From: Lachnospiraceae bacterium
Lineage (GTDB): Bacteria; Bacillota; Clostridia; Lachnospirales; Lachnospiraceae
Length of the DNA stretch: 43,106 bases
NCBI GenBank assembly: GCA_017624495.1
Contig: JAGAMY010000038.1
Span: forward strand, 1 to 43,106
Direction: 5' to 3'
This document shows positions 895-26,004 of this stretch, piece by piece (positions within the stretch are counted from its first letter, which is position 1; each line of letters starts with the position of its first letter). The notes under the pieces are model-generated. The model did not search any database. It saw nothing but the letters and a program-made list of their open reading frames with translations, and had not been told where the DNA came from. A program made the position numbers and the translations under genes.

Positions 895-1044
895 ATAGAT
901 ATTTGAAATATTTGCAGGTCACATCCGTTCATTTACCACTTATCTTCATGTAATGACCACTTATCCATAATCTATAGAAAACAAAAAAACATTTGTATAT
1001 ACTAAAATCGATGCAAAAAAACATAAGAAGAGAGGATAAAGAAA

Positions 1045-2286: not shown

Positions 2287-2372
2287 TGTGCTGACATGTG
2301 TTTTATACTTGTTTCCCATGCAAAATTGGAGTATTATTTGCACAAAGGGGTATTTTGAAAGGAAAAACAGTC

Positions 2373-7660: not shown

Positions 7661-8137
7661 ATGAAACTTACCACGTTATGTTATATTGAAAAAGATAACT
7701 GCTATCTGATGCTTCATCGCACCAAAAAGGAAAATGATGTTAACCATGACAAATGGATTGGTGTAGGCGGCAAATTTGAACCCGGAGAAACACCGGAAGA
7801 ATGTGTGTTACGGGAAGTACAGGAAGAAACGGGACTTACATTATTAAAATACCGTTATCGTGGTCTGCTGACTTTTCATGCCGATGGTTGGGAGGATGAA
7901 TATATACACCTTTATACGGCAGATGCATTTGAAGGGGAATTGATAGAATGTGATGAAGGTACTTTAGAATGGGTGCCAAAGGACAAGATTGAAGAACTTC
8001 CACTTTGGGAAGGGGATAAGATTTTTCTTCGATTGCTGGCAGAAGAGGAGAGGATTTTTTCTTTGAAGCTTAGGTATGAAGGGGATACGTTGGTGGAGTC
8101 GAAGTTGGTCTTTCCGTCCGGTATTCATAGTGTATGA
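7661..8137 (+). CDS. NUDIX hydrolase (MutT/8-oxo-dGTP diphosphatase-like)
   Basis: A 158-residue NUDIX protein. The NUDIX box is GKFEPGETPEECVL then REVQEETGL (residues about 36-58), fitting Gx5Ex7REUxEExGU with all metal-binding glutamates present. MLHRTKKENDVNHDKWIGVGG upstream is typical of Firmicutes 8-oxo-dGTP diphosphatases, which cleanse the nucleotide pool. It is the last gene of the MATE-PatB operon, with a TGGAGG ribosome site. Oddity: the final codons (around 8107-8126, encoding VFPSG) and the stop lie within the left end of the palindromic repeat element, so the native C-terminus may have been replaced by repeat-encoded residues. Confidence 0.85.
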   Translation: MKLTTLCYIEKDNCYLMLHRTKKENDVNHDKWIGVGGKFEPGETPEECVLREVQEETGLTLLKYRYRGLLTFHADGWEDEYIHLYTADAFEGELIECDEGTLEWVPKDKIEELPLWEGDKIFLRLLAEEERIFSLKLRYEGDTLVESKLVFPSGIHSV

Positions 8138-8394
8138 AGTCCGTAAAACAGGCAGGGGGAGTATCTCTGTGGAAGTCCGTGAAAAGAGGGTTTCTATACA
8201 TTTTCATTTATATAGCGGCAACGTTCGTTACCGAATCCGCCACGGCGTCCATGCCGTGGCGGATTCTTGCGCAAACGTCCATGTTTGCGCATAACTACGT
8301 CGCTTAGAAAATGTAAGAAACACTACTTTTCACTACCAATTCCACAGAGATACTCCCCCTGCCTGTTTTACAAATGTACGTTATGAAACCGGAC
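8116..8394 (-). repeat. Palindromic element A, intact (~280 bp, three-hairpin head)
   Basis: Ends are GTCCGGT (8116-8122) and ACCGGAC (8388-8394). A perfect 32-bp inverted repeat (8143-8174 with 8340-8371) forms the main stem; an imperfect inner helix follows (about 8180-8205 with 8307-8332). The head holds three hairpins: 8217-8232, 8233-8266 (14-bp stem) and 8268-8291 (9-bp stem). The last two have different stems but the same six-base loop, GTCCAT (ATGGAC on the minus strand). The reverse complement of element B at 25643-25925 has the same plan, so I treat the minus strand as the sense. No protein is encoded. It lies between convergent NUDIX and chemoreceptor genes. Confidence 0.85.
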
Positions 8395-8477
8395 TAGGGA
8401 GAGTAGGACACTCTACAGTTGCACACCCCCGGCTCTTTCTGCCAAATCCCAATACCTTTTAAAACCGGACGGAAACC
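8395..8477 (+). repeat. Truncated element B (right end only)
   Basis: After TAGGG and a junction, about 8404-8445 matches the right long arm of element B (25861-25901: TGTTGCACA, CGGCTCTTT, TGCCA). The tail ends ACCGGACGGAAACC as at 25919-25932. The left two thirds of B are deleted here. The tail also pairs, with one bulge, with GGTCTTTCCGTCCGGT at 8107-8122, closing the whole locus. Confidence 0.75.
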
Positions 8478-8525
8478 TAGACACAATGTTCATTTGCCGC
8501 CTGTTTCAAGTGTAGCTAAATTTAC

Positions 8526-10043
8526 TTACTCCGCAGTATCATCTTCCAACTTATACTTATCCAACTCATAAGCCAACTCCATAACATCCTTCAAAATCCG
8601 TTTACTATCCGTAGAATACTCCAGATTCTGATGACTCAAGTCATTCGCCTGCTGGGCAGAAGCCGTAACTTCTTCCGTTGTTGCAGATAAATGAAGAATA
8701 TTGTCTACAATCTGATTGTTTGCCTCAGAAAGATTCGTAATCATTTCATCGATATTTCCAATATCACTGGTTAAATTATCCACATTATGAATCATAACCG
8801 TAAAGCTGTCAGCAGCCGTACCGATAAGATTTGCCTGTTCCTCCATGGCGCTTACGGACTGGCTTACTGCGGAAGAGGCATTAGAAGCCTCAATATTGAG
8901 TTCGTCTAAAATAGCAGAAATCTGTTCCGTTTCCTGACGGGTTTTTTCTGCCAGCTGGCGGATTTCGTCTGCGACAACAGCGAAACCTCGACCGGCTTCT
9001 CCGGCTCTTGCGCTTTCAATGGAAGCATTTAATGCCAGAAGATTTGTCTGGGAGGAAATTGCAAAAATCGTATCTGCAATACCCTTTACTGCTAAAGTAC
9101 GATTTTGCAGTTTTTCCATGGCAGCAGCAACATTTGCGTTGGTATGTGCTATATCCTCAGACTGGGATTTTAAATCATTCATAATTGTAAGATTTTTCGT
9201 TGTCAGTTCTTTGGTATCATTTGCTACAGTTACCATATTTTCTGAACGCTCTAAAGTCTGCTGGATGGCAGTCTGAATGTTCTGGGTCATAATTGTCTGG
9301 GTCTGAATATTTTCGGCAGTGCTTAAAGTACTTCCGGAAATATCATCAATAGCACCACTGACCGTTTCTGTAGAACTGCTTAAATCCTCTACCATATCCA
9401 TGGCATTTCGTGTACCTTTGCGGACATTGTGGGCAATATCTAAGATTTCATTGACCATTTTCTGCTGCTCTTTTTGTTTATCCATCAGGCTAAGCAGAGT
9501 ATGCTGGTTGAAACGTGCACCTACAAAGGTAGTATAAAAAGCAACAAACAAAATAAAAGCAATAACAACAGTAGCAAAAATCTGATTTAAAATATCTTCC
9601 TGTGAAAAGTCATTTATTACACATTGATAAATGGTAACAACAATATTTGCAACAATTAGACTGCTGTTTCCAATGATGGAAAACTTTACGTCATAAAACA
9701 ATATGCAGGCAACAAATGGTATCATGGTAGCTACACGCATATAGTCACTGGAAAAATTTGCACCAAGTATCAGTGTCATGCAAAGAGCACCGATAAGGAC
9801 AATGTAGCGAATGACATTACTGTATGGATTTTTGTGGTAGCAGATAATAATTGCCAGCAGAAATGCCGCCATCAGCCCGATAGAAAAAGCTGTAAAAAAG
9901 ACTGAACGGATACCGTTGATGCAGAAGGTAATGACTATCAGTGCCAGAATGGAATAAAAAATCATGGAACCGATTTCTGCAAAGTGATTCATTTTCTTTG
10001 TTTGCTCATTTTTGTCAGCATAAATATACTTGTTTTCGTTCAT
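8526..10043 (-). CDS. Methyl-accepting chemotaxis-type receptor with multi-helix membrane sensor
   Basis: A 505-residue receptor. The first ~180 residues hold about six hydrophobic segments with very short loops, so the sensor is in the membrane rather than in a periplasmic pocket. The cytoplasmic part is a long coiled coil with the conserved hairpin tip [20 protein letters not shown] followed by [19 protein letters not shown], which binds CheA and CheW. A frame six codons longer exists, but its ATG would directly follow a TATAAT; the ATG at 10043 with GGAAGGTG upstream is preferred. No che or flagellar genes are in the window. Similar orphan receptors also signal without motility, so the output is uncertain. 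Confidence 0.85.
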
Positions 10044-10115
10044 AAACCGCACCTTCCCCATTTTTTTTTCATTATAGCATTTTTCGACAAATTAATATAG
10101 TAAATATAGAAATTA

Positions 10116-10144
10116 TTGAAAAAAAATATTTCACATGGTAGAGT
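10116..10144 (+). promoter_or_regulatory. Predicted sigma-A promoter of the ABC-F gene
   Basis: TTGAAA, a 17-base spacer and TAGAGT, ending 31 bases before the ABC-F start. The spacing is ideal; the -10 is only 4/6. Confidence 0.4.
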
Positions 10145-10175
10145 AAAAGACAGTGAAAAAAGAAGGAGAAATACA

Positions 10176-11732
10176 ATGAGTATATTAAATGTAGAACATT
10201 TAACCCATGGATTTGGTGATCGTGCGATTTTTGAGGATGTTTCTTTTCGTTTGTTAAAGGGAGAGCATATTGGTTTAATCGGAGCAAACGGTGAAGGAAA
10301 ATCCACGTTTATGAATATTATTACCGGAAAACTGCAGCCGGATGAAGGAAAAATTGAGTGGGCGAAAAATGTCCGTATCGGTTATTTAGACCAGCATACG
10401 GCATTAGAGAAGGGAATGACGATTGGCAGTGTGCTAAAGTCTGCCTTTGATTTTTTATTTGAAATGGAAGCAACCATGAATGAAATCTGTGAAAAATTAG
10501 GTGAAGCAGATGAAAAAGAAATGGAAAGCTATATGGAAGAACTGGGCACGATTCAGGATTTGCTGACAATGCATGATTTTTATATGATTGATGCAAAGGT
10601 AGAAGAAGTGGCAAGAGCTTTGGGACTTTTAGATATCGGTCTGGACAAGGATGTTACAGATTTAAGTGGCGGACAGAGGACAAAGGTTCTTTTAGGCAAG
10701 CTTTTGCTGGAAAAACCGGATATTTTGCTGTTAGATGAGCCGACAAACTACTTAGATGTGGAGCATATAGAATGGCTGAAGCGTTACTTAAATGATTATG
10801 AAAATGCATTTATTCTTATTTCCCATGATATTCCGTTTTTAAACAGTGTAATAAACTTGATTTATCACATGGATAATCGTGAATTAAACCGCTATGTAGG
10901 GGATTATGATAAATTCATGGAAGTTTACGAAATGAAAAAAGCCCAGTTAGAGGCTGCATATAATAAGCAGCAGAAGGAAATTGCGGATTTGAAGGATTTC
11001 GTAGCAAGAAATAAGGCAAGGGTAGCCACCAGAAATATGGCAATGTCCCGTCAGAAGAAATTAGATAAAATGGAAAAAATCGAATTGGCAGCAGAGCGTC
11101 CAAAGCCGGAATTTGTCTTTAAAGAAGCAAGAACACCGGGCAGATATATTTTCCAGACAAAGGATTTGGTGATTGGCTATGACGAGCCTTTATCCTCTCC
11201 ATTGACCTTAGAAATGGAGCGTGGACAGAAAATCGTGCTGACAGGAGCAAACGGAATCGGAAAGACCACATTATTAAAGAGTATTTTAGGCTTAATAAAA
11301 CCATTAGAAGGTTCTGTGGAATTAGGAGATTATTTAAGTATAGGCTATTTTGAACAGGAAATGGATCAGAGCGTGCAGACCACCTGCATCGAAGAAATCT
11401 GGCAGGAATTTCCGGCATATTCACAGTATGAAGTCCGCAGTGCCTTGGCAAAATGTGGACTTACCACGAAGCATATTGAAAGCTTAGTGCGTGTGTTAAG
11501 CGGTGGAGAACAGGCAAAAGTACGTTTATGTAAACTTTTAAACCGTGAAACAAATATCCTGTTGTTAGACGAGCCGACAAACCATCTGGATGTAGATGCT
11601 AAGGACGAATTGAAACATGCGCTAAAAGCTTATAAAGGCAGTATTCTTATGGTATGCCATGAGCCGGAATTTTATGAAGGACTGGCAACAGATGTATGGG
11701 ACTGCACGAAATGGACAACAAGACTCTGGTAA
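10176..11732 (+). CDS. ABC-F family ribosome-associated ATPase
   Basis: A 518-residue protein with two ABC cassettes and no membrane segments. Cassette 1 has Walker A GANGEGKS (about 36-43), signature LSGGQ (about 162) and LLLDEPTNYLD. A basic helical linker rich in Lys/Arg (about 250-310) forms the P-site tRNA interaction motif region. Cassette 2 has GANGIGKT (about 358), LSGGE (about 442) and LLLDEPTNHLD. ABC-F proteins act in the ribosomal E site to rescue or regulate translation; some give antibiotic protection. The layout is closer to housekeeping YkpA/YbiT types than to known resistance proteins, but this is not decisive. A longer frame begins at 10116; the ATG at 10176 with AGAAGGAG is preferred. 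A strong terminator follows. Confidence 0.9.
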   Translation: MSILNVEHLTHGFGDRAIFEDVSFRLLKGEHIGLIGANGEGKSTFMNIITGKLQPDEGKIEWAKNVRIGYLDQHTALEKGMTIGSVLKSAFDFLFEMEATMNEICEKLGEADEKEMESYMEELGTIQDLLTMHDFYMIDAKVEEVARALGLLDIGLDKDVTDLSGGQRTKVLLGKLLLEKPDILLLDEPTNYLDVEHIEWLKRYLNDYENAFILISHDIPFLNSVINLIYHMDNRELNRYVGDYDKFMEVYEMKKAQLEAAYNKQQKEIADLKDFVARNKARVATRNMAMSRQKKLDKMEKIELAAERPKPEFVFKEARTPGRYIFQTKDLVIGYDEPLSSPLTLEMERGQKIVLTGANGIGKTTLLKSILGLIKPLEGSVELGDYLSIGYFEQEMDQSVQTTCIEEIWQEFPAYSQYEVRSALAKCGLTTKHIESLVRVLSGGEQAKVRLCKLLNRETNILLLDEPTNHLDVDAKDELKHALKAYKGSILMVCHEPEFYEGLATDVWDCTKWTTRLW

Positions 11733-11767
11733 TAATGATTTAAAATTGAATATTGAGAAGTTAGGAT

Positions 11768-11806
11768 AAAAAGCTTCGGAAAGGCAAGGACTTTCCGAAG
11801 CTTTTT
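11768..11806 (+). terminator. Intrinsic terminator of the ABC-F gene
   Basis: AAAAGCTTCGGAAAG pairs with CTTTCCGAAGCTTTT around a short loop; the run of T follows directly. The stem is perfect and about 15 bp long. Confidence 0.9.
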
Positions 11807-11841
11807 GCTATATACGCTATGCGCTACTGCCTAATTAGTAT

Positions 11842-11961
11842 ATGAAAATATATGAAAAACAAAGTAAAAAAATGAAAAAATATGTAAAATAAAGAAGATA
11901 AATGTAAAAATAACAAAATAAATGTTTACACATGAAAATAAATGAAATATAATGAAACGCA
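11842..11961. repeat. Twelve-unit 10-bp tandem array of A-tract repeats
   Basis: The motif ATGAAAA or a close variant recurs on an exact 10-base register at 11842, 11852, 11872, 11882, 11902, 11922, 11932, 11942 and 11952; the units at 11862, 11892 and 11912 are degenerate. The A-tracts repeat about once per helical turn, which should bend the DNA. The array includes the whole promoter of the following regulator gene and ends 13 bases before its start codon. Confidence 0.8.
11925..11953 (+). promoter_or_regulatory. Sigma-A promoter inside the 10-bp array
   Basis: TTTACA (11925-11930), a 17-base spacer and TATAAT (11948-11953). It lies just upstream of the AGGAGG site of the MerR-like gene. 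Because the -10 is at 11948, an in-frame ATG at 11942 cannot be the translation start. Confidence 0.8.
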
Positions 11962-11974
11962 GGAGGATGCCAAA

Positions 11975-12418
11975 ATGCTGGAACAGAAACTATACACCGT
12001 AGCAGATGTGGCAGAATTGACGGGTCTTACAAGTCGTACCATCCGCAATTATCTAAAAGACGGCACATTGCATGGCAGAAAAATTGGTGTCCAATGGCGT
12101 TTTACGGAGGCGGATATAAACCGGCTTTTTACCGAATCGGGGGCTGGTGTACAGAAAAAACAGCAGCCGGAGGACGTCATTTCTGGTTTTATGGAGAATA
12201 GAGCTCATCAGAAAAAGAAAGGGTGTCTGCTTGTGGACATTCCCTTTGAAAAGGAAGAAGAGCTGTCAAAATACATAGAGATTTTCAAAGAAATAGCTTT
12301 GAAAAACAAAGAGCGGGGGTCTTATGCATATGAAGTGTTGGAGGATTCCCGTGTTCTTCGCATGTCAGCAAGCGGAGATATTGAAATTTTGGAAGAATTA
12401 ACAGCGAGGATGAAGTAG
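11975..12418 (+). CDS. MerR/excisionase-like helix-turn-helix regulator
   Basis: A 147-residue protein. Residues 4-50 (LYTVADVAELTGLTSRTIRN, then YLKDGTLHGRKIGVQWRF) are a winged HTH of the MerR/HTH_17 excisionase type. The remainder (about 80-147) is a separate alpha/beta domain with LLVDIPFEKEEELSKYIEIF and SGDIEILEELTARM that I do not recognise; it could sense a ligand or dimerise. The start at 11975 follows AGGAGG by eight bases. It is the first gene of a compact run ending in the rRNA methyltransferase, and its promoter lies in a 10-bp tandem array that could be its own operator. Target and signal are unknown. Confidence 0.75.
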   Translation: MLEQKLYTVADVAELTGLTSRTIRNYLKDGTLHGRKIGVQWRFTEADINRLFTESGAGVQKKQQPEDVISGFMENRAHQKKKGCLLVDIPFEKEEELSKYIEIFKEIALKNKERGSYAYEVLEDSRVLRMSASGDIEILEELTARMK

Positions 12419-12420
12419 TT

Positions 12421-12888
12421 TTGCGTTACATGGGGAAAGATGCGGCTTTGTTTGTTGCAGAGCGTATTATAGATTATAATCATGAGAAACAACAGCAGGA
12501 ATATCTGCGGCAAAAGCAGTATATAGAACATAAAAAGCATATGCGGCATATGAAAAAAAGTGTATGGATGCTTACAATAGCAGTATCTTTGCTGATGACC
12601 TTATGCGGTACAATTGTTACCTTAGAAATGCAGGTACAGGAAAGAGAAGAGCGTATGTCTGCTCTGCGTGTGGAATTAGCAGAGATAAAAATGGAAAATT
12701 TAGAGGCAAAAAAGCGATTATCACAGAATACGGATTATCAATGGGTAAGAGAACAGGCGATAAAACTGGGAATGTCGGAAGTTACCGCAGAACGTGTAGT
12801 CTATTATTCCGTAAATGAGTCTGATTACATGGAGCAGCATAGTGATATTCCTGTGGAAGAAAATACAAATTCAGCATGGAGGAAATAA
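12421..12888 (+). CDS. Single-pass membrane coiled-coil protein (FtsL/DivIC-like shape)
   Basis: About 155 residues: a charged N-terminus, one membrane helix (about 47-68, WMLTIAVSLLMTLCGTIVTL), then a coiled coil (about 70-105) and an acidic tail. The shape resembles FtsL/DivIC division proteins, and the AIKLGMSEVTAERVVYYSV segment resembles the end of septum-initiator proteins. However, there is no other division gene nearby, so this stays a resemblance. It appears to start with TTG two bases after the upstream stop, with GAGGATG before it; an ATG three codons later has no clear ribosome site. The next gene starts immediately at its stop. Confidence 0.6.
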   Translation: MRYMGKDAALFVAERIIDYNHEKQQQEYLRQKQYIEHKKHMRHMKKSVWMLTIAVSLLMTLCGTIVTLEMQVQEREERMSALRVELAEIKMENLEAKKRLSQNTDYQWVREQAIKLGMSEVTAERVVYYSVNESDYMEQHSDIPVEENTNSAWRK

Positions 12889-13401
12889 ATGGAAGAGCTA
12901 TCCATTCTTACAATAAAGAAATTTAAGGATACGATAGAACGTATTTTGCATGTACCGGGAAACTACCGGGGCGGTATATTAGAAATGGCAGTTGTTGCAG
13001 ACAGCCGTTTACAGGTGGAAGAAATACAAAACATTTTACCACAATTGTTAAAAGCATTAAAACAAAAAGGGCAAATATTTCAAAATGTTCGTTTTAATTA
13101 TATTTTTTGGAAAAATCAGTCAATTGAAACAACGGTTTGTCCCATGATGCAGGCAATGTTAGAAAGTTTTTATCAACCCTATGAAAAGGAAGCGGATGAA
13201 AAGGATTTTGACCGTCTGACAGACCATTTGAAGCTTTTTCAGGCAAGGGCGAAAATTGTACTGGTTCTGACCAATGGTAAACCGGTATGGCAGGAAGAAG
13301 AGCAGTTAAAACATATGCAGCCATTTTTGGATAAAAAGTTACTGGTAATGCAGATAAAAGAAAATGCAGTTACAATGTATTACAGAGGCAGGGAAATATA
13401 A
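12889..13401 (+). CDS. Conserved-looking protein of unknown function
   Basis: A 170-residue soluble protein that I do not recognise. The second half, KIVLVLTNGKPVWQEEEQLK and then DKKLLVMQIKENAVTMYY, alternates hydrophobic strands and helices in a way that recalls a small Rossmann or von Willebrand A-like fold, but the metal-site DxSxS is absent. An in-frame GGAGG overlaps the end of the upstream gene, so translation looks coupled. The rRNA methyltransferase follows after 13 bases. Its constant neighbours are a membrane coiled-coil protein and a MerR-like regulator, so it may belong to the same process. Confidence 0.6.
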   Translation: MEELSILTIKKFKDTIERILHVPGNYRGGILEMAVVADSRLQVEEIQNILPQLLKALKQKGQIFQNVRFNYIFWKNQSIETTVCPMMQAMLESFYQPYEKEADEKDFDRLTDHLKLFQARAKIVLVLTNGKPVWQEEEQLKHMQPFLDKKLLVMQIKENAVTMYYRGREI

Positions 13402-13414
13402 AGGAGAGAAGGAA

Positions 13415-14896
13415 ATGTTGCCACAGGAATTTAAAGAGCGGATGAAAAATCTGTTAGGAGAAGAATATGAGACATTTTTTTGCAGTTATGAGCGAGCGCA
13501 GTATCAGGCACTTCGTTTAAATCCATTGAAGGCAGATACAGATACGTTTTTAACGCAGACCAAAGATTGGGAGCTGCGTAGGATTCCGTGGACACAAACA
13601 GGGTATTATTTGCCGGATGGAAATGATGATAAATCCATCCGTCCGGGCAAACATCCCTATCATGAAGCCGGCGTATATTATATTCAGGAGCCAAGTGCTA
13701 TGGCACCGGCAGAATATATCGATGCGAAGCCGGGAGAAAAAATTCTTGATTTATGTGCGGCACCGGGCGGTAAAAGTACGCAGATTGCCGGAAAAATGGC
13801 TGGGGAAGGTCTTTTACTCTGTAATGAAATCCATCCTGCAAGAGCAAAGATATTATCCGAAAATATTGAGCGTATGGGTATTCGAAATGCAATCGTAACC
13901 AATGAAACGCCACAGCATTTGTCGGAGGTTTTTGTAGAGTATTTTGATAAAATTATGGTAGATGCACCCTGCTCCGGTGAAGGTATGTTTCGGAAAAATG
14001 AAGCTGCCTGTGAGGAGTGGAGTATAGAAAATGTGTTGCTCTGTGCGAAAAGACAGGATGAAATCTTAGACTGCGCAGCAGGTATGCTTCGTCCGGGCGG
14101 AAGAATCGTATATTCTACCTGTACCTTTGCCCCGGAAGAAAATGAAGGCAGTATCAGCCGTTTTTTAAGCCGCTACCCGGAGTTTGAGATTTTGCATGTA
14201 GAAAAAGCAGAGGGGATGAGTGACGGCAAAAGTGAGTGGATAGAAAATGCTGCGGAAAAAATCGAAGATACGATTCGTCTGTTTCCACATAAATTAAAGG
14301 GTGAAGGGCATTATGTTGCCGTTTTACAAAAAAAAGCGGATGGCAGTGGAAGGGAATATGCTAAGGGCGGTGAAGAGAAATCCGTAAGCAAAGATGCATA
14401 CAAAGCATATCTTGCATTTGCAGCAGAAAATTTAAAAGAAATACCAAAAGGTGTTTATGTGACCTTTGGTGAACAGCTATATCTTGCACCGGAGCAGACA
14501 CCAAAATTAAAAGGATTAAAAGTACTTCGTCCGGGTCTGCATCTTGGTACGAATAAGAAAAATCGTTTTGAGCCTTCCCATGCATTGGCACTTGCGCTTT
14601 CGCCGCAGATGGTTGAGCATAACCTGAATTTGCCGGTTTATGGCTGTGAAAACGAAACAGATGCGTCAACAGCTATTCGTGCATACTTAAATGGGCAGAC
14701 CATTCCGGCAGAAGGAGAAAAGGGATGGTATTTAATTACTGTGGATGGTTACAGCATCGGCTGGGGCAAGCTGGTCGGAGGAATGATGAAAAATCATTAT
14801 CCGAAAGGGCTTAGGAAGAATTTATCTGCTTACCCCAAATGCCTTCCCACCACCGCAATAAATTCCTGCAAATCCTCCCCAACCCATTTATCCTGA
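13415..14896 (+). CDS. RsmF/NOL1-NOP2-Sun type rRNA m5C methyltransferase
   Basis: A 493-residue SAM-dependent RNA cytosine-C5 methyltransferase. It has the SAM-binding motif LDLCAAPGGKSTQIA (about 110), the PC motif DAPCSGEGMF with C186, and the TC motif YSTCTF with nucleophile C236. The C-terminal part (about 330-470), with HLGTNKKNRFEPSHALALAL, is the RsmF-specific region that helps bind 16S rRNA. A longer frame exists, but AAGGAG before 13415 and the family start decide the ATG. The last ~22 residues overlap, antisense, the end of the convergent LysR gene; similarity is expected to end near PKGLRKNL, so the tail may be a read-through extension. Confidence 0.9.
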   Translation: MLPQEFKERMKNLLGEEYETFFCSYERAQYQALRLNPLKADTDTFLTQTKDWELRRIPWTQTGYYLPDGNDDKSIRPGKHPYHEAGVYYIQEPSAMAPAEYIDAKPGEKILDLCAAPGGKSTQIAGKMAGEGLLLCNEIHPARAKILSENIERMGIRNAIVTNETPQHLSEVFVEYFDKIMVDAPCSGEGMFRKNEAACEEWSIENVLLCAKRQDEILDCAAGMLRPGGRIVYSTCTFAPEENEGSISRFLSRYPEFEILHVEKAEGMSDGKSEWIENAAEKIEDTIRLFPHKLKGEGHYVAVLQKKADGSGREYAKGGEEKSVSKDAYKAYLAFAAENLKEIPKGVYVTFGEQLYLAPEQTPKLKGLKVLRPGLHLGTNKKNRFEPSHALALALSPQMVEHNLNLPVYGCENETDASTAIRAYLNGQTIPAEGEKGWYLITVDGYSIGWGKLVGGMMKNHYPKGLRKNLSAYPKCLPTTAINSCKSSPTHLS

Positions 14897-15699: not shown

Positions 15700-15790
15700 G
15701 TAAAATTCCCTTGTTATCAAAAAAAGTGATTAAAAATAGAAAAACAATCATAAAAGTGTATGGAAATTTTAGCATAAATTTTCTTAAACC

Positions 15791-15821
15791 GCAAGTTTTT
15801 CAAGTTTTTTCAGGTTTTTTT
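15791..15821. promoter_or_regulatory. Three phased T-tracts directly upstream of the por promoter
   Basis: CAAGTTTTT, CAAGTTTTTT and CAGGTTTTTTT follow one another in steps of about 10 bases and end just before the -35. This could act as a curved or UP-like activator of the por promoter. Confidence 0.5.
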
Positions 15822-15822
15822 C

Positions 15823-15851
15823 TTTACAGGTGAGAAAAATTTTCGTATACT
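15823..15851 (+). promoter_or_regulatory. Predicted sigma-A promoter of porGDAB
   Basis: TTTACA, a 17-base spacer and TATACT. Transcription from here would give a leader of about 140 bases ahead of porG. Confidence 0.7.
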
Positions 15852-15886
15852 CAAATCTGTTCACTGTTCGTGTGGGGCATACAAAT

Positions 15887-15970
15887 ATGTATCTCATACA
15901 GACACTTGCAGAGAAGCATAAAGCAAAATTTTCCAAACATCGTGTAATGGCAGTCACGGTGCAGGAGTAA
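15887..15970 (+). CDS. Possible 27-residue leader peptide ahead of porG
   Basis: In the leader, ATG at 15887 opens MYLIQTLAEKHKAKFSKHRV and six more residues before a stop 29 bases upstream of porG. The peptide is basic and has no low complexity. The ribosome site is poor (TGGGG). It may be chance; it is listed because it fills the otherwise empty leader. Confidence 0.25.
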   Translation: MYLIQTLAEKHKAKFSKHRVMAVTVQE

Positions 15971-15999
15971 AATAGAAAAATAGAACAAGGAGAATAGAC

Positions 16000-16874: not shown

Positions 16875-16875
16875 T

Positions 16876-18060: not shown

Positions 18061-18073
18061 GGGGGGCCAAAAC

Positions 18074-19006
18074 ATGAGTCAAAAAGGTTTTAAAGCAATA
18101 CAGGAAAGACCGGAGCGTTTAGCACCGGGACATAGAATGTGTGCCGGCTGTGGCGGAACTATCGCAGTAAGAAACGTATTAAAAGCCTTACATCCGGGAG
18201 ATAAAGCCGTTGTCGGCAATGCCACAGGATGTTTGGAGGTATCCACATTTACCTATCCGTATACTGCATACGAAGACAGCTACATTCACAATGCCTTTGA
18301 AAATGCAGGAGCAACCTTAAGTGGTGTGGAAACGGCATACCATGCATTAAAGAAAAAAGGAAAAATCAAAGACAATTATAAATTCATTACCTTCGGTGGT
18401 GATGGTGGAACATACGATATCGGTTTTCAGTCCTTATCCGGTGCGATGGAGCGTGGACATGATATGGTCTATGTCTGCTATGATAACGGTGCTTACATGA
18501 ATACCGGTATTCAACGTTCCTCTGCAACACCACAGTATGCAGATACTACCACAACCCCGGTGGGTAAAAACTCCAATGGTAAGCCACAGAGCAGAAAAGA
18601 TCTTGCAGCAATTATGGCTTCCCACAATATTCCGTATGTGGCACAGACCACATTTATCGGAAATATGATGGATTTATATCAGAAATCTGAAAAAGCCATT
18701 TATACACCGGGTCCGGCATTCTTAAATGTCATGGCTCCATGTCCAAGAGGCTGGCGTTATGATGCACCGGAAATTATTAATATCTGTAAAATGGCTGTGG
18801 AGACCTGTTACTGGCCATTATTTGAGGTTATCGAAGGAAAATGGAAATTATCCTATAAGCCAAAGAATAAATTGCCATTAGAAGAATTCTTAAAATTACA
18901 GGGCAGATTCAAACATCTTTTTAAACCGGAAAATGCGGAGCTGCTTGCTGCATTTCAGGCGGAAGTGGATAAGAGATGGGAAGAACTGCTTGAGAAGTGT
19001 GAATAG
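18074..19006 (+). CDS. porB: Pyruvate:ferredoxin oxidoreductase, beta (TPP) subunit
   Basis: A 310-residue beta subunit. GHRMCAGCGG and GNATGC carry cysteines that hold the third [4Fe-4S] cluster; FGGDGGTYDIGFQSLSGAME with VCYDNGAYMNTGIQRS is the TPP/Mg2+-binding motif, and the latter is typical of pyruvate-specific enzymes. A run of seven G forms the ribosome site. A terminator follows 17 bases after the stop, closing the operon. Lachnospiraceae usually carry a single-chain NifJ enzyme as well, so this may be a second, differently regulated pyruvate oxidoreductase; that is inference. Confidence 0.92.
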   Translation: MSQKGFKAIQERPERLAPGHRMCAGCGGTIAVRNVLKALHPGDKAVVGNATGCLEVSTFTYPYTAYEDSYIHNAFENAGATLSGVETAYHALKKKGKIKDNYKFITFGGDGGTYDIGFQSLSGAMERGHDMVYVCYDNGAYMNTGIQRSSATPQYADTTTTPVGKNSNGKPQSRKDLAAIMASHNIPYVAQTTFIGNMMDLYQKSEKAIYTPGPAFLNVMAPCPRGWRYDAPEIINICKMAVETCYWPLFEVIEGKWKLSYKPKNKLPLEEFLKLQGRFKHLFKPENAELLAAFQAEVDKRWEELLEKCE

Positions 19007-19023
19007 AAAAGTGCGTGGATGTG

Positions 19024-19063
19024 AAAAAAGGGATTAGAACAGAAGTGTTCTGATTCCTTTTTT
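19024..19063 (+). terminator. Intrinsic terminator of porGDAB
   Basis: AAAAAAGGGATTAGAACA pairs with TGTTCTGATTCCTTTTTT, all 18 positions paired with two G-T wobbles, around a four-base loop. Confidence 0.9.
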
Positions 19064-19077
19064 AAACGATTTTTTGC

Positions 19078-19106
19078 TTGTGAAAAAATGAGATTATGTG
19101 TAAAAT
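19078..19106 (+). promoter_or_regulatory. Predicted promoter of the GGDEF sensor gene
   Basis: TTGTGA, a 17-base spacer and TAAAAT, 45 bases before the start codon. Confidence 0.45.
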
Positions 19107-19150
19107 TAAGTTAATATAAATTAGGTCAAAAGTCCCAGGAGTGATTGCCA

Positions 19151-22100
19151 ATGAAAAAAGTAATAAAAAGAATGATAAGCAGCATATTTGTACTACTCAT
19201 AACTTTTAATCTATGCATAAAAAATCCAACAGACCTTTATGCAAATGCCGCAGGGGAAGCTTCAGAAGAGATTACGGTATATGCGAATATCAGTGAAGAT
19301 GTTATGCAAAAATATATAGAAGGTTTTATGCAGAAATATCCGCAGATTACGGTGAAATATACCTGTCTTTCAAACTATGAAGAGGAAATAAAGCAGAAAA
19401 TAGAAGCAGATGCATATGGCGATGTCTTAATGGTTCCGGGCTATCTCCCATCAGACGACCATAGTGAATATTTTGAGGCATTAGGAGATTACAATACTTT
19501 ATCAGAAAAATACAGGTATATAGAGAATTGTAAAGCAGAAAACGGATACATTTACAGGCTGCCGTCATTAGCCTATACCATGGGCATTATGTATAATGAG
19601 GATGTATTTTATAAGGCTGGAATCACGGAAATTCCTACAAGTATAGAAGGATTTTTATCCGCCCTAGAGGCGATAAAAGAAAGAACAGATGCGATTCCGT
19701 TTTATACTAATTATACAGATGCATGGGCATTATCACCCTGGGAAACTTTCCCTTATATTGAAATGACGGGCAATTCTGATTATCAAAAAAACTTATTTGT
19801 AGATGAAATAGAACCATTTTTGGCAGGCAGTACACATTATGAAGTATATGGACTTTTATATGAAATAGTCAATCGTGGACTTTCTGGTGATACACCGTTA
19901 GAAACAAACTGGGAAGAATCCAAAAAAATGCTGAATAATGGTGATATTGGCTGTATGGCAATTGGTTCGTGGGCATTGACACAGTTTGAAGCTGCCGGGG
20001 AAAATGGAGATGCTGTTGCATTTATGCCCTTCCCAAATGAAATAAATGGCAAACAATATATGACGATTACAACAGATTATTGTTATGGTATCAGCAAAAA
20101 CAGCCAGCATAAAGAAGCTGCAAGGGCATATATTGACTATATGTTAGACGAGTCCGGCTATGCATTAAATCAAAAGACATTATCCATAGTCAAAACGGAC
20201 CCTTTTCCGGATGCCTATGGTTCTATGGAAAATGTAGTCTTATATAGCAGTAATCCTGCCACAAATGAAAATAATGATAAGTATAACAAACTTTCTGCGG
20301 GTTTAAATTTAGAGGATACAACCGAAACGAAACGTATCATAGAAGCCGCTGCGGGGATAACCGGGGAAAGCTTCGATGATATTATGACGGACTGGAATAC
20401 TCGCTGGGAAGCAGAGAGAACATGGGAAGTAGAAGAGGGAAGAAATGCCATAACGCTTCTGGAAGAGACCATGATAGAAGATACTTACGAAGTGGAATTT
20501 TCCAAAACAGAGCAGTCATATTTGAAAGAAAAAGAAAGTTTAAAAATTGGTTATCTTAAAAATATGGCGCCGTTTCAGTTTGAAAATCACGAGGGATTTT
20601 GTGGAGTAGCTTCTTATATTTGTGATGTCATTACAGAAACCACCGGAATATCGGCTGAGTATATAGCATATGAAAATACAGGGCAGATGCTAAATGCTCT
20701 TGAAAATGGAGAGATTGAACTGGCAGCCGGAATGGAAAAAACAGCAGCATACAATGCAAAAGTGCAGTATTCTAAGGGATATGCTGACTATATGTATGTG
20801 TTAATTAAAAATGAAGCAGCCAAAGCAGATACCATTGAAAAAAATAAAATGGCAACCGTTAAAGGGGAAGAGAGCAAATGGAATACTTTAGTTCCAGCTA
20901 AAACGGTAGAAAATACATTGGCTGGCAGTATAAAAGCAGTGGAACGCCTTCAGGCAGATTTTACAGTCAGCAATTATTATAGTGCAAATTATTATGCAAG
21001 ACAGGAAAATTGCCTGCATATCATAATGATTCCATTATCAGAGGAAGGTACGCAGCACATTGGATTTGCCAAAAATGTAGACAGCAGACTGATTTCTATT
21101 GTAAACAAGTGTATTTACAGTATACCAAAAGAAAATATTCAATTGCAGTTATTAGAGTATTTAGACCCTGAAGCAGAAGAAGTAACATTAAAACGTTATA
21201 TTGAAGCGAATCCGTTTCAGGCATTAGCTGCATTAGCAATTGTTCTGCTTTTTATCTTAGCAGCAGTAGTATTTATTATGCGTGAAAAGGAAAAACGCAT
21301 AAAAGAACGTGCTTTAGATATGGAAAGATACCAGACCTTGTCTACGCTTATGGATGAGTATATTTTTGAAGGAGATTTTCAAAAAAAGATTCTTCATTTT
21401 GATAAAAAATTTTTGCAGGATTTTACTTTTGGCGGTAATATAAGCTGGGAAAGCTATCAGGGAAATGATCGGTCGCTGGCAGTATTTTTGCAGCAGATAG
21501 AACAAATCAGGGATGAAAAAAATGATATTTCATCGGAATTTCAGTTGGAGAACAGAGCTGGAGAAGTTTTGTGGTATAAGCTGATTGCATATACAGTGAA
21601 AGATTCTGCCGGAAATGCAATTCACCTGATAGGGAAAATGCTTTGTGTACAAAGTGAAGTGGAAGAAAAAATAAAAATACAGGATAAGGCAGAAAAAGAT
21701 CCATTAACAGGTATTTACAATCGTGAAGGCTTGCAGCAGAAGCTTGCAATGCTTTCTAAGCCCATGGGTACTTTGCAGGAGGTTACTTTAGCAGTAATGG
21801 ATTTGGATAATTTTAAAGGAATTAATGATACCTTAGGGCATGCTGGTGGAGATACGGTTTTACAATTACTGGGTGACACATTAAAGGACTTATACCCGGA
21901 AAAATCCATTGCTGCCCGTTATGGCGGTGATGAATTTGTATTATTTATCTGGAATACAAATGTGCAGGAAGCAGAAGAAGTTTTGAACAAACTGGTGACA
22001 TCTATGGATAGAGAAGTAGAATATCAGAACGTCAAAAAACATATATCCATAAGTCTTGGAGCAGCACATACAAAAACATATGATTCCTATCAGACATTAT

Positions 22101-22186
22101 TTGAGCAGGCAGACGAAACCTTGTATCAGGTAAAGAAAAATGGAAAAAACAGTTACAAGATGCAAGACAGTTACTGGAAATATTAA
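19151..22186 (+). CDS. Membrane diguanylate cyclase with two tandem solute-binding domains
   Basis: A 1011-residue sensor. Order: signal peptide or anchor (about 1-30); a type-1 sugar-ABC solute-binding domain (about 38-430; GIMYNEDVFYKAGI, then IGSWALTQFEAAGE); a second, type-3 amino-acid-like solute-binding domain (about 463-680; LKIGYLKNMAPFQFENHEGF); one membrane helix (about 690-710); a PAS-like region (about 730-835); and a GGDEF domain with DPLTGIYNR, DLDNFKGINDTLGHAGGD and GGDEF at 925-929. The cyclase looks active and lacks an RxxD inhibitory site before GGDEF. It should make c-di-GMP in response to an extracellular solute. A frame two codons longer begins with TTG; ATG with AGGAG nine bases upstream is preferred. 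It is transcribed alone, between two terminators. Confidence 0.88.
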   Translation: MKKVIKRMISSIFVLLITFNLCIKNPTDLYANAAGEASEEITVYANISEDVMQKYIEGFMQKYPQITVKYTCLSNYEEEIKQKIEADAYGDVLMVPGYLPSDDHSEYFEALGDYNTLSEKYRYIENCKAENGYIYRLPSLAYTMGIMYNEDVFYKAGITEIPTSIEGFLSALEAIKERTDAIPFYTNYTDAWALSPWETFPYIEMTGNSDYQKNLFVDEIEPFLAGSTHYEVYGLLYEIVNRGLSGDTPLETNWEESKKMLNNGDIGCMAIGSWALTQFEAAGENGDAVAFMPFPNEINGKQYMTITTDYCYGISKNSQHKEAARAYIDYMLDESGYALNQKTLSIVKTDPFPDAYGSMENVVLYSSNPATNENNDKYNKLSAGLNLEDTTETKRIIEAAAGITGESFDDIMTDWNTRWEAERTWEVEEGRNAITLLEETMIEDTYEVEFSKTEQSYLKEKESLKIGYLKNMAPFQFENHEGFCGVASYICDVITETTGISAEYIAYENTGQMLNALENGEIELAAGMEKTAAYNAKVQYSKGYADYMYVLIKNEAAKADTIEKNKMATVKGEESKWNTLVPAKTVENTLAGSIKAVERLQADFTVSNYYSANYYARQENCLHIIMIPLSEEGTQHIGFAKNVDSRLISIVNKCIYSIPKENIQLQLLEYLDPEAEEVTLKRYIEANPFQALAALAIVLLFILAAVVFIMREKEKRIKERALDMERYQTLSTLMDEYIFEGDFQKKILHFDKKFLQDFTFGGNISWESYQGNDRSLAVFLQQIEQIRDEKNDISSEFQLENRAGEVLWYKLIAYTVKDSAGNAIHLIGKMLCVQSEVEEKIKIQDKAEKDPLTGIYNREGLQQKLAMLSKPMGTLQEVTLAVMDLDNFKGINDTLGHAGGDTVLQLLGDTLKDLYPEKSIAARYGGDEFVLFIWNTNVQEAEEVLNKLVTSMDREVEYQNVKKHISISLGAAHTKTYDSYQTLFEQADETLYQVKKNGKNSYKMQDSYWKY

Positions 22187-22198
22187 GAATTTTTTAAG

Positions 22199-22239
22199 AA
22201 AACGGTTCACAATATGAAATTTATTGCGAACCGTTTTTT
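22199..22239 (+). terminator. Intrinsic terminator of the GGDEF gene
   Basis: AAAACGGTTC-CAAT pairs with ATTG-GAACCGTTTT around an AT-rich loop, with T6. Confidence 0.88.
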
Positions 22240-22252
22240 CTTATGCTATAGT
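22224..22252 (+). promoter_or_regulatory. Predicted promoter of the CPBP-natAB operon
   Basis: TTGCGA, a 17-base spacer and TATAGT. The -35 sits inside the right arm of the preceding terminator, a compact overlap of two signals. Confidence 0.5.
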
Positions 22253-22296
22253 AATCTACATCATTAAATTAACGGAATAAAGTGAGGAGGAAAGAA

Positions 22297-23262
22297 ATGA
22301 ATAAGTATTTAAATGAACCTACGGCGGTAAAAGAGGCAAGAGAAAGCCAGAAAGGACTGCATATTGTACTGGAAATTTTGATTTTTGTAGCTGTATTTTT
22401 GGTCTGTTCATTTGCACAGGGATTGATTATGGCGCCGGTAGAAATGATTTTTTTGTTTTCAAATGGTGATTATGTAAATGCAATGATGAGTGGAGACATG
22501 GCGGCTATTATGAATGAGTCAATGACAGCGGCTATGGACATGGCATCTTCTGACTGGTTTATGGCAGTATCATTATTTTCTACTGCTTTGATGATTATAG
22601 TGACTATGCTTTTTTGTAAGTTTGCCCAGAAAAGAAAGATGTCCTCTCTTGGTTTTGTAAAAAAAGGCGCAGGGAAAGAGTACATAAAGGGTGTTATTGC
22701 AGGATTTCTTCTGTTTTCAGCAGCAGTTCTGTTTTGTATTGTAACAGGAGCTTTAAAAATAGAAGGTTTGTCAGATACCTTTGCCATCGGTACATTTTTA
22801 TTGTATGTGTTTGGCTTTATGATTCAGGGAATGGCGGAAGAAGTGTTGTGCAGAGGTTACTTTATGGTATCCGTTGGCCGTCGGTATTCTATGCTTGTAG
22901 CAGTTATAGCAAATTCTTTAGCGTTTGCTGCGTTGCATCTGTTTAATGCCGGTATTGGTGTGCTGCCACTTATTAATCTGACACTATTTGGTATTTTTGC
23001 ATCGGTGTGTTTTATCAAAACAGATAATATCTGGCTTGTAGGTGCGATTCATTCGGTATGGAATTTAGTGCAGGGAAATGTATATGGTATCAAAGTCAGT
23101 GGTATGGATACACCGTGTACAATTTTTACATCTGCCATGACAGAAGGAAAAGATATTATCCATGGTGGTGCATTTGGCTTAGAGGGCGGTATCGCCGTAA
23201 CAATTGTACTTGTTATCGGAACGGTGATTCTGCTTATGTATAAGAAAAAAGAAAGTGTATAA
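22297..23262 (+). CDS. CPBP-family (CAAX protease/Abi) membrane metalloprotease
   Basis: A 321-residue protein with about eight membrane helices. The three CPBP motifs are present: EEVLCRGYF (EExxxR), FAALHL (FxxxH) and AIHSVWN (HxxxN/D). These glutamates and histidines form the intramembrane protease site. An AGGAGG site precedes the ATG at 22297. It is followed after 14 bases by an ABC exporter ATPase. CPBP proteins beside ABC exporters often process peptides or give self-immunity, but no peptide precursor is visible here, so the substrate is unknown. Confidence 0.85.
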   Translation: MNKYLNEPTAVKEARESQKGLHIVLEILIFVAVFLVCSFAQGLIMAPVEMIFLFSNGDYVNAMMSGDMAAIMNESMTAAMDMASSDWFMAVSLFSTALMIIVTMLFCKFAQKRKMSSLGFVKKGAGKEYIKGVIAGFLLFSAAVLFCIVTGALKIEGLSDTFAIGTFLLYVFGFMIQGMAEEVLCRGYFMVSVGRRYSMLVAVIANSLAFAALHLFNAGIGVLPLINLTLFGIFASVCFIKTDNIWLVGAIHSVWNLVQGNVYGIKVSGMDTPCTIFTSAMTEGKDIIHGGAFGLEGGIAVTIVLVIGTVILLMYKKKESV

Positions 23263-23276
23263 ATCTGGAGGTAAAA

Positions 23277-24167
23277 ATGAAACTTGAATTAAAAGACATA
23301 AAGAAAAGTTTCGGAGAAAAAGAAGTATTAAAGGGAATATCCTTTCTGGCGGAAAGTGGAAAGGCATTTGGACTTTTAGGACGAAATGGTGCAGGAAAAA
23401 CAACATCTATTCGTATTTTGATGAACGTATTTGGTGCTGACAGCGGCGAAGTTTTTATGGATGGTAAAAAAATTGATTATAAAAAAGTAAAAATTGGTTA
23501 TCTGCCGGAAGAACGTGGTTTGTATCCGAAAAAGAAGATTATTGACCAGTTGGTGTATTTTGCGGAATTAAATGGAATGAAGTATAAAGATGCCGTAAAA
23601 TCCATTGATTACTGGCTTGACCGTTTAGGAATGATGGAGCATCGCAATAAACGCTTAGATACGTTATCCAAAGGAAATCAGCAGAAGATCCAGTTGATAA
23701 CCGCATTGGCACATAATCCGGAAATTGTTATCTTAGATGAGCCATTTTCCGGTCTTGACCCTGTGAATGCAATGCTTTTAAAAGATGTGGTAAAGGAAGA
23801 GATTTCAAAAGGGAAGATTGTCCTTTTTTCCAGTCACCAGATGAATTATATTGAAGAATTCTGTGATAAAATTGCCATCTTAAATGGTGGAAATATTGTA
23901 TTACAGGGGGAGATAACAGAAATCAAGCGTAATTATGTAAGAGATAAGCTGATTGTGCGTTCCCAAGAATTAGATAAAATCAGGGAATATCTTGGCGCTG
24001 ACTGTTTTATGAATGAAGCAGGTGAGTTAGTAGTTCAGTTAAAAGCGGCAGAGGAAAAACAGAAAGTCATGAAGGATTTGACGGAAAAATATGATATTGA
24101 TGAAATAAAGGTATTTGAACCATCATTGAATGATATATTTGTTGAATATGCCGGAGAACAGAATTAA
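23277..24167 (+). CDS. ABC exporter ATP-binding protein (NatA-like)
   Basis: A 296-residue ATPase. Walker A is GRNGAGKT (about 38-45), the signature is TLSKGNQQKIQ (about 130) with the NQQK form typical of NatA/YhaQ exporters, and Walker B is VILDEPFSGLDP. A C-terminal DUF4162-like domain follows (about 220-296). TGGAGG precedes the ATG. It pairs with the permease that starts 14 bases downstream. Family members export Na+ or act in peptide/drug efflux in B. subtilis-type systems. Confidence 0.88.
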   Translation: MKLELKDIKKSFGEKEVLKGISFLAESGKAFGLLGRNGAGKTTSIRILMNVFGADSGEVFMDGKKIDYKKVKIGYLPEERGLYPKKKIIDQLVYFAELNGMKYKDAVKSIDYWLDRLGMMEHRNKRLDTLSKGNQQKIQLITALAHNPEIVILDEPFSGLDPVNAMLLKDVVKEEISKGKIVLFSSHQMNYIEEFCDKIAILNGGNIVLQGEITEIKRNYVRDKLIVRSQELDKIREYLGADCFMNEAGELVVQLKAAEEKQKVMKDLTEKYDIDEIKVFEPSLNDIFVEYAGEQN

Positions 24168-24181
24168 GGAGATAAGATAGC

Positions 24182-25429
24182 ATGAAACAGTTTGGAACAA
24201 TATTAAAGTTTGAATTAAAAAGTTATTTTAAAAATAAAGTTTTTGTGGGTCTTACGATTGCATTGGTAGCTTTGATTGCTGTTTTAATGTTTTTTCCAAA
24301 AATAATGACAGCTTTTGACAGTGATGACAGCGAAACAGAAGCAGCGGATACGGTTGCAGGAATGATATTGGTTTCTACAGAAGGCGTGGAAAATGCCGAT
24401 ATGATAGAAGAGGCATTTGCAGCAGCATTTAGTGATTATGAGGTATGTTTTACAGAGGATGAGCTTTCCGTTATAGAAGAAAAGGTTATCAATGGTGATG
24501 CTGAATGTGCGATTGTCATGAATGGACCGACATCTTATGCGTATTATGTCAATAACCTGTCCATGTACGATGGCAGAACAGCGGTTATAGATGAAGTGTT
24601 GCAGAATCTTCATCAAATGAGTACAATGTTAAGCAGTGGTTTATCCGCAGAAGAAGCAGTGGCAGCATTAAATGTGCAGATAGAGCACGAAACCGTAAGT
24701 CTTGGTAAGAATCAGGCGCAGAATTTTCTATACACTTATATCATGATTTTTGCATTGTATATGGTGATTTTGTTGTATGGACAGATGGTGGCGACAAATG
24801 TGGCAACCGAAAAAAGCTCAAGAGCCATGGAGCTGTTAATCACCAGTGCAAAACCGACAAGTATGATGTTTGGAAAGGTTGTAGCCTCCTGTCTGGCAGG
24901 GTTGATTCAGTTGCTGTTAGTGTTTGGTTCAGCCATTTTATTCTATAATGTAAATAAATCCTATTGGGAAGGAAATATGATGATTGCCTCGGTATTTGAT
25001 ATGCCGTTGAATCTGCTTATTTATATGCTGATATTCTTTGTTTTGGGATTTTTTATTTATGCTGTTTTATTTGGTGCGATTGGTTCACTGGCATCGAAAG
25101 TAGAGGATATCAATACATCCTCCATGCCGTTAATCTTGTTGTTTGTAGCAGGATTTATGGTGGTTATGTTTTCCATGACAGATGGAAATGTGGATTCTAC
25201 GCTGATGCGTGTATGCTCCTATATTCCGTTTACTTCTCCTATGGCAATGTTCACACGAATTGCCATGAGCACTGTGCCGTTTTATGAGATTTTGATTTCT
25301 ATTGTGGTGCTGATTGCATCGGTGCTAGGTGTAGGGGTGTTTTCGGCAAAGATTTATCGTGTAGGTGTGTTGTTGTATGGTACGACACCGAAGATTGGAG
25401 AGGTTTTGAAAGCGATGAAGAAGGCGTAA
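24182..25429 (+). CDS. ABC-2 exporter permease (NatB-like)
   Basis: A 415-residue permease. One N-terminal helix (about 20-40) is followed by a large extracytoplasmic domain (about 40-180) and then five to six helices. VATNVATEKSSRAMELLITS is the conserved loop of the NatB/YhaP group of ABC-2 permeases. It works with the preceding ATPase; the CPBP protease gene is in the same operon. Only about 20 bases after its stop the truncated palindromic repeat begins, and no terminator other than those hairpins is seen. Confidence 0.87.
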   Translation: MKQFGTILKFELKSYFKNKVFVGLTIALVALIAVLMFFPKIMTAFDSDDSETEAADTVAGMILVSTEGVENADMIEEAFAAAFSDYEVCFTEDELSVIEEKVINGDAECAIVMNGPTSYAYYVNNLSMYDGRTAVIDEVLQNLHQMSTMLSSGLSAEEAVAALNVQIEHETVSLGKNQAQNFLYTYIMIFALYMVILLYGQMVATNVATEKSSRAMELLITSAKPTSMMFGKVVASCLAGLIQLLLVFGSAILFYNVNKSYWEGNMMIASVFDMPLNLLIYMLIFFVLGFFIYAVLFGAIGSLASKVEDINTSSMPLILLFVAGFMVVMFSMTDGNVDSTLMRVCSYIPFTSPMAMFTRIAMSTVPFYEILISIVVLIASVLGVGVFSAKIYRVGVLLYGTTPKIGEVLKAMKKA

Positions 25430-25448
25430 ATGAAGAGCAGATGTACAT

Positions 25449-25584
25449 GGTGGATTCTTGCGCAAACGTCCGTGTTTGCGCATAACTACGTTTTTTAGAA
25501 AATGTAAGAAACACTACTTTTCACTACCAATTCCACAGAGATATTCCTCTGCCTGTTTTACAAATTTACGTTGTGATACCGGAT
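25449..25584 (-). repeat. Truncated palindromic element A'
   Basis: From GGATTCTTGCGC onward this matches 8261-8394 closely. It retains the hairpin TGCGCAAAC/GTTTGCGCA (25459-25482) with loop GTCCGT, one base different from copy 1, then the right arms and the ACCGGA-type end (25578-25584). The left half, including its long-stem partner, is missing at the natB end. Confidence 0.85.
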
Positions 25585-25662
25585 TAGGGAGTGTAGGTTG
25601 TGTCTGCCTTAATATACAAACCATGCCCGTGCCAATACCCTAGTCCGGTTTCAAAATGTAAA
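25565..25662. repeat. Junction hairpin between A' and B
   Basis: 25565-25589 pairs with 25638-25662 (21 of 25 Watson-Crick plus two wobbles). The stem is made of the facing ends of A' and B (ACCGGATTAGGG with CCCTAGTCCGGT); the loop is about 48 bases. Confidence 0.75.
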
Positions 25663-25925
25663 TCTGGCAGAAAGAGCCGGGGGCTGTGCAACAGTAGACT
25701 TGGGAGTGGACTTAGTATTTATTATTATTTTCTTTTATAAAATAGCCATGCGCCGACAGGACGTCGGCGCAAGTTTGAACCATGACATGGATGTCATGTT
25801 GAAAACGGTGGCGTCCGTTGCCATAGCTTATATGAAAATAATTAGAAATACTTAATCCACGGACACTCTACTGTTGCACAGCTCCCGGCTCTTTTTGCCA
25901 GCTCCACTACATTTTAATACCGGAC
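25643..25925 (+). repeat. Palindromic element B, intact (~283 bp, three-hairpin head)
   Basis: Ends are GTCCGGT (25643-25649) and ACCGGAC (25919-25925). A 35-bp stem (25664-25698 with 25867-25901) has 33 Watson-Crick pairs and two G-T. The inner helix continues to about 25740. The head has hairpins at 25749-25771 (9-bp stem, loop AGGAC), 25781-25798 (loop ATGGAT) and 25809-25823 (loop GTCCGTT). Its reverse complement aligns with element A through GTCCGTG, TTTCTA, ATTTTCAT and GGCAACG, while the long stems differ. The 575-base gap between natB and the next gene holds A', the junction and B and nothing else recognisable. Confidence 0.85.
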
Positions 25926-26004
25926 GGAAACCAAACCATATTTTCTTTTCACCCAAAGTATGTTAAAATGCTAACAGTTTAATATACAAAAATAGGGAGT
26001 ACAA

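Follow-up and report, generated by a model that had tools for sequence, protein, structure and literature searches.

Several described systems come close to the repeat treated here, a family of palindromic elements of about 280 bp that occurs at two loci in the window, i.e. the whole stretch of 43,106 nucleotides analysed (contig JAGAMY010000038.1 of the Lachnospiraceae bacterium assembly GCA_017624495.1). One is the Rfam family TwoAYGGAY (RF01731), which is described as a probable RNA in the consulted excerpts of PMC2864571 and PMC4333381; these excerpts make no mention of dimers, end arms, high copy number or placement at stop codons. Covariation in RF01731 has served as an argument for a structured RNA and as a basis for function prediction. 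Another related system is formed by the repetitive extragenic palindromes (REPs) and bacterial interspersed mosaic elements (BIMEs). According to excerpts of PMC3733652, REPs are 20-40 bp long, lie near the 3' ends of flanking open reading frames (ORFs) and occur as opposite-oriented dimers; where two genes converge, fewer than 20 bp separate most REPs from each 3' end. GTAG REPs go with RAYT transposases. The terms 'Firmicutes' and 'Clostridi' are absent from the main text of that paper.

Both elements in the window were found to match TwoAYGGAY above the gathering score. With slightly better than even confidence, we read the repeat as an oversized, REP/BIME-like, non-coding dispersed DNA palindrome whose module is Rfam's TwoAYGGAY. 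The name already existed; the architecture, the placement directly after stop codons and the missing excess of G-U pairs are new. Judged from titles and abstract openings, the repeat is not described in the open-licence literature searched.

Two decayed copies in the window

When the entire window was searched with the Rfam models, two matches reached the gathering threshold (score 43), both to RF01731 TwoAYGGAY, and at both cores the alignment spans model positions 1 to 168. An earlier note on this DNA, which knew of no named repeat with these features, is thus corrected, yet the Rfam entry leaves the dimer, the arms, the copy number and the stop-codon placement unexplained. That note had also treated A and B as separate elements. 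They do belong to one family, but the match lies on the minus strand in A and on the plus strand in B, so that A and B are inverted relatives, one module type in two orientations, and form the two halves of one nested-palindrome dimer.

The earlier coordinates, the lengths (279 and 283 bp), the GTCCGGT and ACCGGAC bounds and the order A, TAGGG, B, ACCGGACGGAAACC were confirmed by re-reading the sequence. The two loci share this order as claimed, but at locus 2 a 53-bp spacer (25590-25642) parts TAGGG from B. The elements were said to lie only between genes, which is nearly correct except that A covers the last 22 bp of a NUDIX reading frame ending at 8137. The bounds are right as written but do not mark the full extent, as fuller copies carry outer inverted arms of about 75-80 bp. 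The annotated parts are as follows.

8110..8115, plus strand: CTTTCC, remains of the left end arm, from by-eye comparison with the related genome G009
8116..8394, minus strand: module A of locus 1, whole, 279 bp, with GTCCGGT/ACCGGAC bounds; first 22 bp over the NUDIX end
8174..8338, minus strand: TwoAYGGAY core of A (RF01731, 108.4 bits); both hairpin loops ATGGAC in the alignment
8395..8477, plus strand: TAGGG and a B-module remnant, core lost, with the end ACCGGACGGAAACC; 86% identical over 72 bp to the B end of locus 2
25448..25584, minus strand: module A remnant of locus 2, one half gone; 91% identity to A and a weak partial RF01731-type match
25585..25642, no strand: TAGGG and short linker between the locus 2 modules; other copies have longer palindromic linkers
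25643..25925, plus strand: module B of locus 2, whole, 283 bp, from sequence reading and fold
25699..25867, plus strand: TwoAYGGAY core of B (RF01731, 116.3 bits); loop 2 ATGGAT, loop 1 shortened to AGGAC
25926..25932, plus strand: GGAAACC, start of the right end arm, remainder lost; arm defined from fuller copies

Module A carries both of the AYGGAY terminal loops and module B only partly, its loop 1 being AGGAC. When folded as RNA, each whole element forms a long stem capped by hairpins, with energies of -162.7 kcal/mol for A (z -17.25 against 200 dinucleotide shuffles) and -146.5 kcal/mol for B (z -17.15, likewise against 200 shuffles). The copy most like module A elsewhere in the genome shares 93% identity with it across 299 bp. 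Decay is evident at both loci of the window: the core of B and most of the left arm are gone from locus 1, and half of A is gone from locus 2. The missing part of the left arm probably disappeared through a deletion between two TTTCCG motifs, one inside the NUDIX gene and the other in the arm itself; the NUDIX orthologue in G009 keeps arm sequence straight after its TGA.

Copy number and spread

The earlier description of a dispersed family of palindromes of about 280 bp in A-B order is correct. A DNA search of the whole genome (labelled G000; 54.67% complete, 51 contigs), in which matches to A were merged with matches to B, located similar DNA at 36 places, which have unrelated flanks and are spread over 29 of the 51 contigs. 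At least 20 of the 36 places are at contig ends, so that the elements break assemblies, and the far ends of some contigs are beyond judgement. One place is on contig C14 (locus L044), which shares 100% identity with a G009 contig across 1755 bp; C10 (L127) is 94% identical over 630 bp to another G009 contig. As other genes compared between the two genomes are 77-90% identical, C14 and C10 are probably stray contigs in the bin. The protein identity of G009 to this genome is 95% at two genes.

Further copies are also present in relatives. The RF01731 model was found in 18 of the 98 related genomes surveyed at E <= 0.001, 17 of them above the cut-off, and ten of the 18 carriers have more than ten matches each; with at most 25 candidates scored in any genome, the copy numbers are lower bounds. 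At the level of DNA similarity the family is narrower, with matches in two of 61 genomes, this one and G009, and the end arms are found less widely than the inner modules. The DNA pattern of a sister subfamily was found in 27 stretches in named genomes, namely uncultured Roseburia sp., uncultured Lachnospiraceae bacterium, Eubacterium sp. ABMPRH_322_1 and Lachnospiraceae bacterium MGB1.

An origin from a phage, plasmid or virus was considered and set aside: one exact sister-subfamily DNA pattern gave no stretches in viral contigs, module A gave no match in plasmids and one dimer of the relative G006 gave none in phages, a weak result since each query represents one (different) subfamily.

In one relative (L076 in G013:C3, 1501-1870), a TwoAYGGAY module is followed, 123 nt further on and on the same strand, by an S10-Clostridia ribosomal leader (RF03136).

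Architecture of the complete unit

The arrangement of the complete unit was obtained from other copies. Twenty-eight cores were used to build a model, which matched 147 times across 100 loci, and removal of echoes and repeats left 115 distinct modules; as the loci were chosen for carrying a module, they are informative on arrangement and not on frequency. In the complete unit, two modules of opposite orientation stand on either side of a palindromic linker, and an end arm closes the unit on each side. Its ends are sharp, many copies starting at one base with TT(A/C)CGGTTTGGCGATG... and showing the inverse at the far end. The unit measures 724 bp in a copy without one core and 750 bp in the G006 insertion, and we estimate that it reaches up to about 0.95 kb. 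Among 22 neighbouring module pairs within 800 nt, from several genera, 21 are in the (-,+) order, i.e. pointing outward, and one is (-,-). A third module type, also above the RF01731 threshold, was found in three copies examined.

The feet of the palindromes are not symmetrical. The 5' foot [GC][TC]AGTC was found in 47 of the 89 modules and on the wrong side in two, and the 3' foot GACG[GT] in 49 of them and on the wrong side in 17; for plain GTAG the figures are 35 and 23. This break of symmetry recalls the GTAG/CGTC tags of REPs, a likeness that may or may not reflect kinship.

Placement directly after stop codons

The distance to stop codons was scored for the distinct outer ends in this genome, using reading frames of at least 100 codons and a range of -3 to 8 nt. 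Fifteen of 24 outer ends fall within this range, in fact 1-6 nt after the stop, as compared with a background in the window of 280 of 8784 intergenic position-directions (3.2%; binomial P 4e-17). Restricting the comparison to positions no more than 300 nt from such a stop raises the background to 8.0% against 15 of 20 ends, and leaving out C14 gives 14 of 23 ends. In other species, as judged by eye in a chosen set, the element often begins right after TAA, TAG or TGA. Elements were also observed between convergent genes, directly after the stops.

For 72 modules with room on both sides, a stop was found on the 3' side only in 31, on the 5' side only in eight, on both sides in ten and on neither in 23; a stop on the 3' side only means that the module is antisense to the gene. 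The same classes hold 12, six, nine and eight of the unpaired modules, respectively.

A preference for the word TAR-A was examined as a source of this placement. Of the 173 TAR-A words found between genes in the window, only 14 are true stops, so that TAR-A alone would not yield 15 of 24. By eye, TAA or TAG occurs within 14 bases in all 24 flanks, and an A/T-rich preference may therefore contribute. Tight placement at 3' ends has a precedent in the convergent-gene REPs of the PMC3733652 excerpts.

Base pairing in the stems

The stems vary in sequence while pairing is kept, as double changes were found at 35 of the 39 consensus pairs. RNA helices accept G-U far better than A-C. The ratio of G-U to A-C was 18:19 in TwoAYGGAY versus 57:2 in the thiamine pyrophosphate (TPP) riboswitch of relatives (Fisher P 4e-8), in a test that used one method and 28 sequences per family and in which a tRNA control had too few genes. 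A plain DNA alignment of the long arms of 97 modules, read on the Rfam strand, gave 178 G-T and 234 A-C pairs. As A-C pairs are about as frequent as G-U pairs, unlike in the TPP control, neither strand seems to be favoured in the upkeep of the helices, which would then be maintained as DNA and not as RNA of one strand; a model-fitted count given below leans weakly the other way. In the alignment-based test TwoAYGGAY differs from what its description as a probable RNA leads one to expect. Template switching is reported to homogenise the arms of inverted repeats (excerpts of PMC7202029, PMC8604942 and PMC3820800), and it could give such covariation without selection on RNA. If the helices are indeed maintained as DNA, the count of G-U versus A-C would be a simple check for other orphan RNA families.

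Empty site and rearrangement

A tlyA match was obtained in 13 genomes of the same genus. The interval from dxs to tlyA measures -4 to 35 nt in 11 of them, and one leaves no room to judge. In G006 the gap is 750 nt with a dimer inside, which shows one clean empty site. The far flank of this dimer resembles the dxs end of relatives by eye; a blind test of this long duplication gave z 1.9 and the observation was not used.

Five gene ends were compared with G009 by inspection. The NUDIX, ABC-2 permease and HflX genes bear elements in both genomes, whereas at the malic enzyme and methyl-accepting chemotaxis protein (MCP) genes the element is found only in this genome and G009 has a plain hairpin and T-run. 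Some copies thus predate the split from G009, and others were gained, lost or rearranged. Gene order relative to G009 is broken at both window elements (8137-8526 and 25430-26005). The genes that flank each window element lie apart in G009, a pattern that recombination of inverted copies would produce, and such recombination may lie behind the breaks.

Interpretation

In the proposed REP/BIME-like palindrome, copies would spread through a folded single strand on which a recombinase acts in trans and would settle directly after stop codons owing to a target preference, to harmlessness or to both. The arms would then stay complementary at the DNA level, either by palindrome correction through template switching or by selection for a DNA hairpin, and any terminator or RNA role at a given gene would be secondary. 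The repeat shares with the REPs and BIMEs of the excerpts in PMC3733652 the opposite-oriented dimers, the intergenic position a few bases from gene 3' ends and feet that resemble the tags. It is unlike them in that its module of about 280 bp is about ten times longer, and in that its carriers are mostly without RAYT transposases; because of size and transposase, we do not class it as a REP. It would represent a REP-like system next to stop codons in Lachnospiraceae-type genomes.

Several observations weigh against this interpretation. No mobiliser was found, Y1 transposases numbering zero in this 54.67%-complete genome and occurring in six of 18 carriers versus 50 of 80 non-carriers. Mobilisation by RAYT/Y1 transposases, to which the inverted dimers and GTAG-like feet had pointed, was accordingly rejected. 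No consistent target duplication was found when 72 gene ends were compared with the far flank (one z of 5.2, the next 3.0), a test that addresses long gene-end duplications, very short ones having been judged by eye at one copy. Not all copies are recent, as those at NUDIX, permease and HflX are common to G009. In a model-fitted alignment of 101 rows, which by its nature rewards G-U, the counts are RNA-like (64 G-U, 36 A-C), and the tests of strand and pair type count sequences without weighting for kinship. Finally, GGA in the loops is conserved across genera while the stems change, a pattern that calls for some factor able to read the folded strand.

In a rival reading the modules would be CsrA decoys, i.e. 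transcribed outward on the Rfam strand, antisense to the neighbouring gene ends, with their GGA loops sequestering the protein as a distributed sponge. We regard this as rather unlikely. Csr-type decoy RNAs such as CsrB and RsmZ carry GGA in hairpin loops, and the modules share this feature; they are unlike those decoys in having two or three loops per module, in dozens of places, antisense to gene ends. Excerpts of PMC4333381 name CsrB and RsmZ and propose CsrA binding to TwoAYGGAY from motif matches, as a testable hypothesis. The conserved GGA loops and the model-fitted G-U count fit this proposal, and csrA was found above the cut-off in 16 of 18 carriers versus 48 of 80 other genomes (P 0.027), which lends it weak support. 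It is opposed by the missing G-U excess beside the TPP control and the slight deficit in the long arms. Promoter-like sites number one versus 1.3 in shuffles at locus 1, two versus 2.3 at locus 2 and four versus 1.9 in an intact copy, and csrA was found neither in this genome at its 54.67% completeness nor in G004 (85%). A combined version, in which a mobile palindrome copied right after stops exposes outward heads that act as CsrA decoys, would let the copy number of a selfish element set the Csr set point. TwoAYGGAY would then be a DNA hairpin able to transpose, with most of its covariation produced by palindrome upkeep at the DNA level. We hold this combined version to be distinctly improbable.

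The position directly after stops, also between convergent genes, and the sharing of several positions with G009 would suit a two-way terminator or stabiliser of the 3' untranslated regions, kept for that role at both convergent neighbours. This is very unlikely in our view, since terminator-like sites number zero versus 0.7 in shuffles at locus 1, two versus 0.8 at locus 2 and zero versus 0.9 in the intact copy, and over these three sequences stems followed by a T-run are not above chance. Moreover, the G006 dimer splits dxs from tlyA, whose closeness in 11 relatives makes this an unlikely site for a favoured terminator, and in G009 an ordinary hairpin with a T-run takes the place of the element at the malic enzyme and MCP genes. 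We give equally little credence to an ordinary miniature inverted-repeat transposable element (MITE) of a terminal-inverted-repeat transposon, where the arms would be transposon ends served by a transposase in trans and the folded modules passengers. The repeat resembles MITEs in its inverted ends, sharp boundaries, many copies, lack of long coding capacity and empty site at dxs-tlyA. It is unlike them in showing no general target duplication, no parent element (among transposases, the Y1 family was searched) and a fixed two-module interior, and the wider sharing of the inner modules than of the end arms also speaks against a MITE, as does the lack of plasmid, phage or viral-contig matches (one query each, from different subfamilies).

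Other genes observed

A divergent CsrA paralogue was considered as a partner gene and dropped; it adjoins flagellin, and in one genome an element is 1.2 kb off. Such a CsrA-like ORF was observed beside flagellin at L106-L113 and L124 (genomes G080, G006, G009, G002, G075, G008, G022 and G003), and in most of these loci a small integrase-family gene (about 190-200 aa) adjoins it. For the G009 copy, the Pfam domains CsrA and Phage_integrase were confirmed.

No transposase was seen inside the dimer in the linkers examined. At L126 (G000:C4:95000-99800, 867-3828), two outward A modules lie about 2.6 kb apart around two ORFs, one of 588 aa with a PLD-like domain and one of 148 aa matching the C-terminal end of MmeI; these can be read as cargo, or as remains of a restriction system inside the element. 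At L019 (G000:C47), an ORF at about 1500-1660, which we take to resemble mannose-6-phosphate isomerase, reads into a truncated A module, so that its last residues are encoded by the element.

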